Part shown: positions 19,826 through 24,200 of the stretch, in pieces
Layout: the number at the start of each line of letters is the position of its first letter
Numbering within the stretch: the stretch's first letter is position 1
From: Halobacteriovorax marinus
GTDB lineage: Bacteria; Bdellovibrionota; Bacteriovoracia; Bacteriovoracales; Bacteriovoracaceae
Direction: 5' to 3'
DNA: 64,000 bases
Assembly (NCBI GenBank): GCA_002163155.1
Contig: MAAO01000005.1
Coordinates: forward strand, 1 to 64,000
Program-made: the position numbers and the translations under genes
The notes under the pieces: generated by a model
Seen by the model: only the letters and a program-made list of their open reading frames with translations
Database searches by the model: none
What the model was told of the DNA's origin: nothing

Positions 19826-20971
19826 TTAGAGTGATTGCTCATAATGAGTGGGTCCTGATTTAGAAATCATGGCCCCTCCTAAGCATACCTCTTGTTCATC
19901 AATCGTTAGGTAAAAAACTATCGATTGTCTAACCGCCACTGCTCTTTGAGATTCAGCAAAAGTCACATGAATCAAATCACCATCAATACTTTCAATGGTA
20001 CAATCTTGATCTGCCTGACGATATCTAACCTTGGCACGACACTTTAGTGGCAACTCAAACTTAAAGTCAGCTGAAACCCAAGAAATTTCATCTGCCCAAA
20101 GTTCATCACAATACAGAGCAGGATGTTCTCCTCCACGCTCTACTATGATGACATTTCTTTCTATGTCTTTTCCAACGACAAACCATGGCTCACCTGGTCC
20201 ACCGAGACCTAAGCCTTTTCGCTGTCCCATAGTATAATAGACAGAACCTGTATGAGATCCTACGACTTCACCTTTTAAATTTTCAAACTTTCCAGGTTTT
20301 AGGGCGATATAGTTTGAAAGAAAATTCTTAAAGTTTCTCTCTCCTATAAAACATATTCCTGTAGAGTCTTTCTTATCTTTCGTGGCCAGATCATACTTAG
20401 TGGCAAGAGCTCTAACTTCTGATTTTGGTAGATGGCCTATAGGAAATATTATTCTATTAAGTTTCTCTTCTTTCATTGTATAGAGAAAGTATGTCTGGTC
20501 TTTACCTGGATCATTTCCTTTTACGAGTCTATTCTCACCAGAAAGATTCGTATTTTGACAGTAATGCCCAGTCGCTAGATAATCGGCACCAAGTTCAATC
20601 GCCTTATCTAAGAAGACCTTAAATTTAATTTCTCTATTACAGAGAATATCTGGATTGGGTGTAAAACCGGCTTCATACTCACTGAGAAAATGTTTAAAGA
20701 CATTTTCTTTATACTCTTTAACAAACTCAACTGAATAATAAGGAATATCTAATTTTTCACATACACTTATAACATCAGCATATTCTTTAGAGGCCTGACA
20801 TACGCCAAACTCATCCTCTTCTTCCCAATTCTTCATGAACATTCCTATGACGTTATACCCTTGTTCTTTTAAAAGGGCCGCGCATACGGAACTATCAACT
20901 CCACCGGACATACCAACGATGACAGTGGTTTCTTCATTAGGTTTAATTTGGTTTGGTGCTGTAAAACTCAT
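19826..20971 (-). CDS. mnmA: tRNA-specific 2-thiouridylase
   Basis: MnmA thiolates U34 of Lys, Glu and Gln tRNAs. The ATP pyrophosphatase loop GMSGGVDSS (20-28), catalytic Cys in NPDILCNREIKF (Cys 111) and the second Cys in STGICFIGERNF (Cys 207) are all present, with normal length (381). C-terminal beta-barrel domains end in VCLGGAMI. The upstream sequence has no strong ribosome-binding site; it reads TGT-TACAAG six bases before ATG, a degenerate version of the leaderless pattern seen elsewhere in the window. A divergent paralogue lies 2.4 kb away on the same strand. Confidence 0.96.
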   Translation of the reverse strand: MSFTAPNQIKPNEETTVIVGMSGGVDSSVCAALLKEQGYNVIGMFMKNWEEEDEFGVCQASKEYADVISVCEKLDIPYYSVEFVKEYKENVFKHFLSEYEAGFTPNPDILCNREIKFKVFLDKAIELGADYLATGHYCQNTNLSGENRLVKGNDPGKDQTYFLYTMKEEKLNRIIFPIGHLPKSEVRALATKYDLATKDKKDSTGICFIGERNFKNFLSNYIALKPGKFENLKGEVVGSHTGSVYYTMGQRKGLGLGGPGEPWFVVGKDIERNVIIVERGGEHPALYCDELWADEISWVSADFKFELPLKCRAKVRYRQADQDCTIESIDGDLIHVTFAESQRAVAVRQSIVFYLTIDEQEVCLGGAMISKSGPTHYEQSL

Positions 20972-21015: not shown

Positions 21016-22161
21016 TTAAATTATATCGTAGCTCCAGGCCAAGACACTAGGGCCTAAGTAGAGAAAAGAGTTGTATAAGGTCTTGAAATTAAGGGTTTCA
21101 ACAAAATCATTTGAGGTATGATGATTTTTAAAGTTAAAGTCATCCTCCCAATTTTGAGAGAATGTGCAAGCAGCAAAGCCAGCATCCCAGAAATTCACAT
21201 GATCTCCAGAGTTAAAGCCATTGGACTCAATATCAAACTTTACTCCTGATTGAGCTTTATCCCCAACGGATTTAAGAGATTTAACAAGTTTCAGATCTTT
21301 ACCATGTAGAGCTTCATTTTCTTTTCTTATATAAATTTTGAAATTATTAAACTTCTTTTTTTTATCTTTGCTTTTAGTATCATGACCAAGCATGAGAACA
21401 TTTACAAATCCTGCAAATTTTTCTTTTTTCAATGATTGTTTATATTTAGAAACAAAGGCCCTAGCTCCAAGAAAACCAAATTCTTGATAATCAAAGAAGA
21501 CAACTCTAACTGTTTTAGGTAAATCAACTTCAGAGAGAACTTCGATCATAGAAAGAAGAACAGAAACTCCAGTTCCATTATTATCTGCACCGGGTTGAGC
21601 AGATTCAAAGTCAATTTTTAAATTTTCTTTATTAAATGTTATTGTATCAAAGTGTGCACCAAGGACTATGACTTCATCAGGGTTAATTGTTCCTTTTTTT
21701 TCCCAAATGACATTACTCCCCTTAACGTTTCTAAGTTTACCTAAATGACCAATCATTGAATTTGTAAAACTGTTCCATTTTTTGTAGGTTTTAGATGTCT
21801 TTGAATAGTTTCCAGCGATTTCTTTTTGAAAATCTTTTCTGTATAGAGAAATGGCATGATCAATATCGGGAGAGAATTCATCGATAATAACGTTAGAATT
21901 TCCATCTATTTTTTTAATCCTATCAAAAATCCATTTCGCCGTTTTTTCATGTCCCTTGCTCCCCACCATTCTCGAGGGGCGACAGCAAGAAACAAAACTT
22001 CTCAGGTTAGAAATTAAAAGTTTCTTATCATATTTCTTAAATACTCTTTTTACGGAAGAGAGATTTGTAATTTTCTTATCGTAAGATCTTAGGACAAACT
22101 TATCCATCGCCAGAGTATTCAATTGAAAAGTAATCAAAATTAAAAACAATATTTTTTTCAT
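21016..22161 (-). CDS. Secreted M28-family peptidase-like protein
   Basis: A signal peptide (about 1-18) leads into an M28 zinc aminopeptidase fold (381 residues). The metal ligands are all recognisable: His 170 in GAHFD, Asp 193 in GADNNGTG, Glu 227, Asp 320 or thereabouts in SGDHVNFWD, and His 347/348 in HHTSNDFVE. The residue before the metal-binding Glu, normally the Glu that acts as general base (EE.G..GS), is Gln here (FFDYQEFGFLGA). Activity may therefore be altered. It sits between mnmA and the MnmA paralogue and is read in the same direction. Confidence 0.85.
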   Translation of the reverse strand: MKKILFLILITFQLNTLAMDKFVLRSYDKKITNLSSVKRVFKKYDKKLLISNLRSFVSCCRPSRMVGSKGHEKTAKWIFDRIKKIDGNSNVIIDEFSPDIDHAISLYRKDFQKEIAGNYSKTSKTYKKWNSFTNSMIGHLGKLRNVKGSNVIWEKKGTINPDEVIVLGAHFDTITFNKENLKIDFESAQPGADNNGTGVSVLLSMIEVLSEVDLPKTVRVVFFDYQEFGFLGARAFVSKYKQSLKKEKFAGFVNVLMLGHDTKSKDKKKKFNNFKIYIRKENEALHGKDLKLVKSLKSVGDKAQSGVKFDIESNGFNSGDHVNFWDAGFAACTFSQNWEDDFNFKNHHTSNDFVETLNFKTLYNSFLYLGPSVLAWSYDII

Positions 22162-22164
22162 AAT

Positions 22165-23394
22165 TTAAAACTCGAAGTTAATTTTTGGTTTCTTTTCACT
22201 TTCATCTATGATGACTTCTTCTTCATCACGGTTTTTTGGAAAAGTTCTATACTCGCCTTCATCAAAATATCCAGCGTGTCTCACTACTCCAGAACCTAAG
22301 ACTTTAGCACCCATGCCTTTCTTGTTATAAAAAACTTGGTAACCACCTCTCGGACATTGCCCATCTTGTTTTTCTACAAACTCAACAACTACCGAACGAT
22401 TATTCTTAAAATACAAAATACAGGGAAATTTTTCACCTGCTGCTGCAAGCTGCACAAAACATTTTAGAGGCTTAGATAAATCCATAGCAGGATCGTGAGA
22501 AAATCTCATTAAACGACAATGAGTGAAAAAGTGTTTATCTATAAAATCAACGTAAACCAATTGTTTACCAGGAAAGATTTTTACAACATGTAAATTCTTA
22601 TCAACAAGAGAACTCCCCTTTGAAGGTATATTGCTTTGATTTAGTTCATACAAGTGAACACCAAGGTGTTCACAAAGAGTTGTTTCATCTTTGAAATTAA
22701 TTATACTTCCTTCTTTTCGTAAACTAGGAGCAGTAAACTTCTCAACAGCAGAAATAAAGTCAGGACTTGAAAGAAAGGTCCTTCTCTTTAGCTTATTTTC
22801 TTTGTCATTCTTTGAGAATTTTAAACCAAGAAGACTAGAGATTTTGTCCACTTCATTAGATTTTATTTCTGCCAATGGAAAAATAAGTTTAGAAAGTTCT
22901 TCTTGAGAGAGCCTACTTAGTCCGTAAGTCTCATCACAAGTGATATCGTTGGGAACAAGTAAGCTAAAAATTCCACTTTTTTGATTTTTAAAAATCTTCG
23001 CCTTATGTCCAGTAGCAATTAGATCCACTTTAAGTTTCTTTCCCTTCTCTAAAAGGGTTTCTACAAGAACTTTATTCCAAGCAATGATAGGTTCAAACTT
23101 TTCTCCTGCTAGTCTAGTTGAGACTACAGGCTCCACAAGTCTTGAATAAAATAAACTCGAAACATTTGTTCCATAAAATGGAATCTCCATCTGATCACAC
23201 ATGGCCTTGATATCATCTAAGTTAGTAGGGTTCCATACTTTAAAACTTTCATAATCATATTCATGAAAAACAATCCCTAGACCTATTACATTCATACCTT
23301 GTTTTTTTAATAAATAAGCCGCAACAGTGGATTCGATTCCACCATCCATTCCCACAAGAACTGTTTCACGTTTATTTTTTCCAACTTGATTCAT
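22165..23394 (-). CDS. MnmA paralogue lacking catalytic residues
   Basis: The protein aligns with MnmA over its whole length (409 residues from the ATG at 23394; the frame is open to a TTG at 23418). The correspondence includes the DLIATGHKAKIF stretch and the SKLIFPLAEIKSNEVDKISSLLG segment. The defining residues are changed. The PP-loop SGGVDSS is DGGIEST (residues 17-23), the catalytic Cys is Trp (EPIIAWNK, Trp 106), and the second Cys region reads RRTFLSSPDF without Cys. It is probably not a thiouridylase. It may bind tRNA or ATP, or regulate the real MnmA; these are guesses. An extended -10 box lies six bases before the ATG. Confidence 0.85.
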   Translation of the reverse strand: MNQVGKNKRETVLVGMDGGIESTVAAYLLKKQGMNVIGLGIVFHEYDYESFKVWNPTNLDDIKAMCDQMEIPFYGTNVSSLFYSRLVEPVVSTRLAGEKFEPIIAWNKVLVETLLEKGKKLKVDLIATGHKAKIFKNQKSGIFSLLVPNDITCDETYGLSRLSQEELSKLIFPLAEIKSNEVDKISSLLGLKFSKNDKENKLKRRTFLSSPDFISAVEKFTAPSLRKEGSIINFKDETTLCEHLGVHLYELNQSNIPSKGSSLVDKNLHVVKIFPGKQLVYVDFIDKHFFTHCRLMRFSHDPAMDLSKPLKCFVQLAAAGEKFPCILYFKNNRSVVVEFVEKQDGQCPRGGYQVFYNKKGMGAKVLGSGVVRHAGYFDEGEYRTFPKNRDEEEVIIDESEKKPKINFEF

Positions 23395-23543: not shown

Positions 23544-24200
23544 ATGATATCTAGAAATGCCCCAGAAATTACAAAGGGAGATATACTTCTCTTTGAAACT
23601 GAAAATCAAAAGCACAATCAAAGTCAGTTAAAAGACTTCATTTACTTTTTAAAGTATTGTGGGAAACGTGGTGCTATTAAATTTAATCACGTAGAAGAAA
23701 AAGCTACGCTTCTTAAAAATTTAACTCTTAAAGAAAATATACTACTAGATTCAGGAATGAAGAGAAACGAAGACAAAAGTCTCGTAAAACTATTGGCCGA
23801 AAAAGGTTTAACCTACCTTTCTTTACTAGCGAAGAAACTCGATGACGAAAACCTCTACCCTAATCAAGTTGATATTGAAGCTAAGAAAATTACATCACTC
23901 ATTAAAGTTCTCTTTTCAAGTGCAGATTACCTATTTCTTGAAAGACCTGAAAAATATCTTTCAAAATCTACACAGGACTTGTTTATTTCGGCGCTATTTC
24001 AGTCTCTAACACAGAAGGGGCAGATTCTATTACTCACAAGTGATCAACGAAATATGTGGCTGCAACACGTTACAAAAGTTGTTACTAGATCAAAAAATAG
24101 CCACTTTTCACTTGATGCTGTTATCAGTCAAAGTGAAGTTATAAATAAAGGACACTTAGAATTCGAAGGACCCCTATTTAGTCACAAAAAAGCCGCTTAA
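23544..24200 (+). CDS. Degenerate ABC-ATPase-like protein
   Basis: This 218-residue cytosolic protein has no clear family name. Its second half reads like an ABC ATPase. NLTLKENILL resembles the Q-loop side, YPNQVDIEAKKITSLIKVLFSSADYLFLERPE occupies the place of the signature and Walker B (normally LSGGQ...LLLDEP), and GQILLLTSDQ resembles the H-loop strand. There is no Walker A (GxxGxGKS/T) and the signature is lost, so ATP hydrolysis is unlikely. It is read towards the cytosine methyltransferase, 88 bases downstream. Start choice is uncertain because no good ribosome-binding site is visible. Confidence 0.6.
   Translation: MISRNAPEITKGDILLFETENQKHNQSQLKDFIYFLKYCGKRGAIKFNHVEEKATLLKNLTLKENILLDSGMKRNEDKSLVKLLAEKGLTYLSLLAKKLDDENLYPNQVDIEAKKITSLIKVLFSSADYLFLERPEKYLSKSTQDLFISALFQSLTQKGQILLLTSDQRNMWLQHVTKVVTRSKNSHFSLDAVISQSEVINKGHLEFEGPLFSHKKAA

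Follow-up and report, generated by a model that had tools for sequence, protein, structure and literature searches.

Beside a genuine MnmA gene, Halobacteriovorax marinus carries an MnmA-like gene whose product lacks the catalytic residues of this tRNA 2-thiouridine(34) synthase and which evolves under clear purifying selection. Orthologues occur across the family Bacteriovoracaceae, which comprises predatory bacteria and their relatives, in a strictly conserved order with MnmA. As the best explanation for the whole, it is tentatively proposed that a displaced C-type MnmA has turned into a non-catalytic accessory of U34 thiolation. The distinction between D-type (D-xx-C...C) and C-type (C-xx-C...C) MnmA follows Shigi, as cited in PMC11784392.

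The Locus

The window is the whole stretch of DNA that was analysed, 64,000 nucleotides long. The features that matter here are the following.

22165..23394, minus strand: MnmA-like pseudoenzyme ("MnmA-C relic"), 409 aa (ORF and translation, Pfam/NCBIfam, AlphaFold2 fold of MnmA, orthologues in 106/129 family genomes)
23326..23346, minus strand: former PP-loop, D17-G-G-I-E-S-T23, which is S-G-G-V-D-S-S in MnmA (alignment with 89 MnmAs, all S-G-G-x-D-S)
23074..23094, minus strand: former DxxC motif, with I103 and W106 at the Asp99/Cys102 positions, E. coli numbering (alignment)
22777..22779, minus strand: T206 at the Cys199 position, the loop alignment being approximate (alignment)
22168..22239, minus strand: acidic C-terminal tail with a conserved hydrophobic-x-F tip, ...KINFEF (C-terminal residue counts; pLDDT)
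21016..22161, minus strand: M28-family peptidase with a signal-like N-terminus (Pfam M28, 4.6e-24; conserved gene order)
19826..20971, minus strand: genuine D-type MnmA, with SGGVDSS, NPDILCN and STGICFIG (NCBIfam MnmA, 447.7 bits vs a cut-off of 284; alignment)
23544..24200, plus strand: divergently transcribed conserved neighbour resembling an ABC ATPase without Walker A (kept beside the MnmA-like gene in the family; weak ABC_tran match in a basal homologue)

The reading frame of the MnmA-like gene runs intact from an ATG at 23394 to a stop at 22165, and its 409 aa, predicted to form a full MnmA fold, bear out the first impression of an intact frame of MnmA-like length. Judged from its sequence, the protein is homologous to MnmA far beyond chance: Pfam recognises a HUP domain (4.5e-32) and the C-terminal barrel (6.6e-6), and the NCBIfam MnmA model matches at 6e-47. 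The middle PRC-barrel is recognisable at 16.9 bits, under the Pfam cut-off of 27, and both curated NCBIfam cut-offs are missed by more than 95 bits (NF001138, 160.2 vs 284 bits; TIGR00420, 138.9 vs 236.95 bits). The initial annotation described an alignment with the neighbouring MnmA over all domains; this holds for the predicted structure, whereas BLASTP reaches residues 1-253 only, with 29% identity. Likewise, the 2.4 kb placed between the two genes is a start-to-start distance; the intergenic distance is 1.2 kb and contains the M28 peptidase gene.

Between the end of the MnmA-like gene and the start of this peptidase gene lie 3 bases, and 44 bp separate the peptidase gene from the D-type MnmA. 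Gaps of this size on one strand suggest that the three genes share a transcript, a reading that is supported rather than proven. Scans for promoters and terminators at the locus returned signals no better than chance.

Distribution, Gene Order, and Parallel Cases

A profile search was made of 129 Bacteriovoracaceae genomes, with taxonomy taken from contig titles and strong orthologues defined by E < 1e-80. The MnmA-like gene was found in 106 of them, spanning about 40 genera, and in 66 of the 73 good genomes (completeness of 90% or more, contamination no higher than 5%). A scan of the genome contigs with the window protein as a single query returned no relative; it was the profile scan that found them. 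The idea of a private oddity of one genome was rejected on the strength of these family-wide orthologues. The genus g32 and a few other genomes have MnmA and lack the MnmA-like gene, and its absence from some complete relatives that carry a D-type MnmA (G035, G104, and G106) indicates that it is not indispensable. Genes of this kind are likely to be named mnmA by homology, and they make a cautionary case for annotation.

On every contig that holds both genes, the D-type MnmA lies downstream on the same strand (86/86). The usual spacer is the M28 peptidase gene, typically 1.0-1.25 kb, and sometimes the two genes are directly adjacent (-3 to 78 bp). In several genomes (G009, G011, and G024) the peptidase slot is empty or occupied by another gene. 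A separate observation concerns G006 (L064:5276-6493), a 96% complete genome in which a degenerate MnmA-like gene with an R-H-S PP-loop is present and a D-type MnmA was not found; this pattern reflects either an assembly gap or the loss of s2U34 synthesis.

Is this arrangement confined to one family? Genomes of four others (f8, f12, f27, and f28) also carry a canonical D-type MnmA together with a second copy. The second copies of f8 range from canonical C-type (G328, G329) through eroded, and in those of f12 the triad and the PP-loop are gone while the frames stay open over about 330-410 aa (for f8 and f12, e.g., L290-L303). In both f8 and f12 the second copy does not adjoin the D-type gene. 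In the tree the f12 relics nest among the C-type copies of f8 and not with the Bacteriovoracaceae clade, which implies that the catalytic residues were lost independently. All 18 sampled genomes with only a C-type enzyme are canonical and erosion was seen only beside a D-type MnmA, these being raw counts that ignore kinship.

Fold, Retained Residues, and the C-Terminal Tail

The AlphaFold2 model of the window protein, computed from a 30-row alignment, has a mean pLDDT of 89.9 and a pTM of 0.87. The best five PDB matches given by Foldseek are all MnmA, namely the E. coli MnmA-tRNA complexes 2der/2det/2deu, and 2hma. In VIA-align the model matches 2hma with Z 36.5 over 354 residues and 2det with Z 35.7, so that the comparison with MnmA-tRNA suggested at the outset has given a close fit; the next families, ThiI, LarE, and NcsA, follow at Z 12-15 (12.5 for NcsA 6scy). 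In the predicted structure all three MnmA domains are present, and it is structure rather than BLAST that reveals them.

The orthologues without cysteines retain the YLLKKQG helix after the former PP-loop, ATGH, and the Asp of the DQ motif, together with four conserved lysines (K63, K117, K133, and K184). Among the 73 columns that are invariant in MnmA, only 28 have the same majority residue. The net charge of the folded core averages +1.9 in the MnmA-like family vs -5.7 in MnmA (+9 vs -13 for the pair in the window), and a basic core of this kind would be compatible with RNA binding. Residues 401-409 of the window protein are disordered, with pLDDT below 50. The last residue is F in 72, L in 11, and Y in 4 of the 92 orthologues (87/92 altogether), and F in 2 of the 89 MnmAs. 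The acidic tail with its hydrophobic-x-F tip is specific to the MnmA-like family and looks like a docking peptide.

Another question is whether a protein with these features serves U34 thiolation at all. It may have kept the MnmA fold and an affinity for tRNA and yet do a job that has nothing to do with s2U34. Chaperoning tRNA, regulating translation, and lending specificity to another modification are examples, with the C-terminal tail as the means of recruitment. The conserved tip that MnmA lacks would suit such a role, as would a set of conserved residues unlike that of MnmA (28/73) and the f8 and f12 copies that stand away from the D-type gene. What links the protein to thiolation instead is its strict synteny with MnmA in Bacteriovoracaceae and the finding of eroded copies only alongside a D-type MnmA, and the unrelated job is held to be unlikely, though worth keeping in mind.

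Loss of the Catalytic Residues

The residues behind the chemistry of MnmA were followed through an alignment of 92 full-length orthologues and 89 MnmAs from those genomes. In 89/89 of the family MnmAs every fixed position of the PP-loop SGGxDS (Ser, Gly, Gly, Asp, Ser) is kept, and the window protein departs from the motif (DGGIES). It has neither the D-type nor the C-type triad, with I, W, and T in their place. The substitutions first read from the sequence, SGGVDSS to DGGIEST, the catalytic Cys to Trp, and the disappearance of the second Cys, are confirmed, and the equivalent of Asp99 proves to be lost as well (Ile). The PP-loop position taken by D17 must hold pyrophosphate. In E. coli MnmA, variants of C102, C199, and D99 are inactive (PMC11784392). 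With the pyrophosphate-binding Ser changed to Asp, all the sulfur/Fe-S ligands gone, and these E. coli mutants as a guide, it is very unlikely that the window protein would perform MnmA chemistry.

To call the protein stripped of catalytic residues, as the initial annotation did, is right for the window protein and its clade but not for the family. Across the 92 orthologues the Cys triad is nearly all-or-none: it is C-C-C in 47, fully or nearly lost in about 40, and partial in four or five. The C-xx-C...C triad persists in basal orthologues. When the catalytic columns are left out of the tree, almost all Cys losses fall in a single 40-member clade (support 93), to which the window's genus belongs; G100 and G030, both weakly placed, appear to have lost their cysteines separately. 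The change of the PP-loop Ser to Asp is the mark of a 13-member sub-clade holding the window's genus. On this mapping, the catalytic residues were lost secondarily within one large clade, and their loss is not what defines the family.

The 47 complete triads invite the thought that the family is still enzymatic, the C-xx-C...C orthologues being active Fe-S thiouridylases for another target (a tRNA or a position) and the clade without cysteines working by a modified chemistry. Some PP-loops are indeed near-canonical (SGGVDS, TGGVDS). Yet many are damaged even in members with all three cysteines (GR, GS, D to N or K), and the window protein, with the acidic D17 at the pyrophosphate position, has no equivalent of Cys102, Asp99, or Cys199, the residues whose variants inactivate the E. 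coli enzyme. A surviving enzyme is for these reasons considered improbable.

Origin of the MnmA-like Gene

Where did a protein with these cysteines come from? Each of the 89 MnmAs from these genomes is D-type and has a canonical PP-loop. In the rest of the phylum, also in Bdellovibrionaceae-like families, the MnmAs are C-type (C-xx-C...C, SGG[VM]DS). The family's own D-type enzyme clusters with the remaining D-types (100/100), away from the MnmA-like protein. When the f8 intermediates are included in the tree, the MnmA-like protein lies on the C-type side together with the second copies of f8 and the copies of f12, and all D-types lie opposite (branch support 100, starred). Constraining the MnmA-like proteins to group with the D-types of the phylum costs 31-32 lnL units, which falls short of formal rejection in the AU test (p 0.142 and 0.089), whereas a constraint grouping them with the C-types of the phylum fits slightly better than the free tree. 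The C-side placement, the likelihood comparison, and the C-type MnmAs elsewhere in the phylum make a native C-type MnmA that was displaced the favoured, though not proven, identity of the MnmA-like gene.

The label of paralogue used at first is accordingly doubtful: the neighbour is D-type, the MnmA-like protein groups with C-types, and the one is probably not a duplicate of the other (AU p 0.09-0.14). An ordinary paralogue would require that the D-type MnmA was tandem-duplicated and that C-xx-C was gained secondarily in the ancestor. The adjacency of the genes would fit, and the two AU values leave room for it; still, besides the poorer likelihood, it needs a change from D to C and then a loss, in a phylum where C-types are native, and it is quite improbable.

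Selection

Selection was assessed from pairwise NG86 dN/dS. Inside the window's genus synonymous sites are saturated or nearly so (pS about 0.73-0.77), and unsaturated pairs were taken from sister genera. The values are 0.03-0.10 for the MnmA-like gene and 0.03-0.12 for MnmA; pairs without cysteines and with unsaturated dS give 0.081 (G065/G069) and 0.053 (G064/G066). Pairs of the window's species within its genus share 68% identity in the MnmA-like protein vs 79-83% in MnmA. The MnmA-like gene evolves faster than MnmA, yet under clear purifying selection, and its frame is intact in 92 of 93 copies.

The initial annotation argued for selection for another function and named neutral dN/dS or a lack of orthologues in close relatives as signs of decay; the low ratios and the 106/129 genomes uphold the argument and show neither sign. 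Purifying selection and family-wide presence point to a function that is probably independent of MnmA catalysis. A decaying MnmA duplicate heading for loss, which the faster evolution, the absence from g32 and a few others, and an in-frame stop in G026 might evoke, is rejected as extremely improbable given dN/dS far below 1, intact frames, occurrence in about 40 genera, and the conserved tail.

The single interrupted copy is that of G026 (L054 7669-9156), and the gene of its congener G091 is intact.

Known Systems and a Proposed Role

The window protein resembles MnmA/TrmU in its three-domain fold (2der/2det/2hma, Z 35-36.5), ATGH, PP-loop context, and DQ-motif Asp, and differs from it in the PP-loop changes of Ser to Asp and Asp to Glu, the missing D/C-xx-C...C triad, scores more than 95 bits under the NCBIfam cut-offs, and the extra acidic tail. 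The best functional precedent is the eukaryotic Ctu2, which is homologous to Ctu1 but has no cluster cysteines; the two are both needed in vivo, and a proposed task of Ctu2 is to orient the tRNA (PMC10067955). Like Ctu2/Ncs2, the partner of Ctu1/Ncs6, the window protein is homologous to a catalytic enzyme, has no Fe-S cysteines, and has an intact U34-thiolase homologue in its lineage. Unlike Ctu2/Ncs2, it belongs to the MnmA subclass of PP-loop proteins (Z 36) and not to NcsA/Ctu1 (NcsA 6scy, Z 12.5), is bacterial with no zinc fingers noted, is known from its sequence and a predicted single-chain fold, and is likely a displaced older enzyme rather than a duplicate of its neighbour. It stands outside the Ctu2/Ncs2 family and would only work like Ctu2. 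Trypanosomatids offer further dead homologues kept beside a live enzyme, namely prozyme and a dead paralogue of deoxyhypusine synthase (PMC5201418, PMC3663545); the enzymes are different ones, and activation of MnmA by the window protein is hypothetical.

How might such a protein have arisen? A native C-type MnmA (C-xx-C...C, presumably of the [4Fe-4S] type) would have been resident in the lineage when a D-type MnmA arrived, which in Bacteriovoracaceae settled directly behind it in a shared transcription unit and became the enzyme that makes s2U34. The displaced protein would have been retained and have diverged fast; the Fe-S/persulfide ligands would then have disappeared in the large clade to which the window's genus belongs and, in the window's sub-clade, so would the serine of the PP-loop. 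Now without chemistry, the relic may bind tRNA, MnmA, or both through its intact MnmA fold, conserved lysines, and tail, and may help the probably co-transcribed D-type MnmA to thiolate U34, or control it in doing so, in the way that Ctu2/Ncs2 serves Ctu1/Ncs6.

For the window protein we infer loss of activity, tRNA binding, and partnership with MnmA, and by analogy a non-catalytic accessory that binds tRNA and/or MnmA would be its most economical role. This is supported by the family-wide orthologues, the 86/86 synteny, the low dN/dS, the parallel cases, the match to the MnmA-tRNA fold over about 350 residues, the basic core with its lysines, and the Ctu1/Ctu2 precedent. Several points count against the accessory: the M28 peptidase encoded between the two genes has no evident tie to tRNA, some complete relatives with a D-type MnmA lack the gene, the second copies of f8 and f12 lie apart from the D-type gene, D-type origin is short of formal rejection in the AU tests, and E. 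coli MnmA works without such a partner.

A bolder version, rather doubtful, is that on its displacement by the D-type in Bdellovibrionota the old C-type enzyme became a subunit without catalysis of its own, either obligate or regulatory, and that two or more lineages took this path in parallel. The resulting heteromeric U34 thiolase would have evolved independently of Ctu1/Ctu2, and its two members would be xenologues instead of paralogues. MnmA passes for an enzyme of one subunit. A selected dead MnmA beside a live one, family-wide, raises the question: do some bacteria use a two-component wobble-uridine thiolase? In addition, the graded loss of Fe-S ligands (intact CCC, partial, none) is a natural series for probing the disputed role of [4Fe-4S] in MnmA.

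Pseudoenzyme partners and the D and C types of MnmA are already known. The literature search returned nothing on an MnmA pseudoenzyme, nor on the MnmA of Bacteriovorax/Halobacteriovorax, and the literature searched yielded no bacterial case in which displacement gave rise, in parallel, to a selected MnmA pseudoenzyme.

A last observation concerns the divergent neighbour at 23544-24200 on the plus strand. Its product, 218 aa long, is like the second half of an ABC ATPase, with a Walker-B-like LFLExPEKYL; the homologue in G007 matches ABC_tran with E 0.008, and a Walker A motif occurs in 0 of 59 homologues. It would be a second degenerate nucleotide-binding protein, encoded next to the MnmA-like one.
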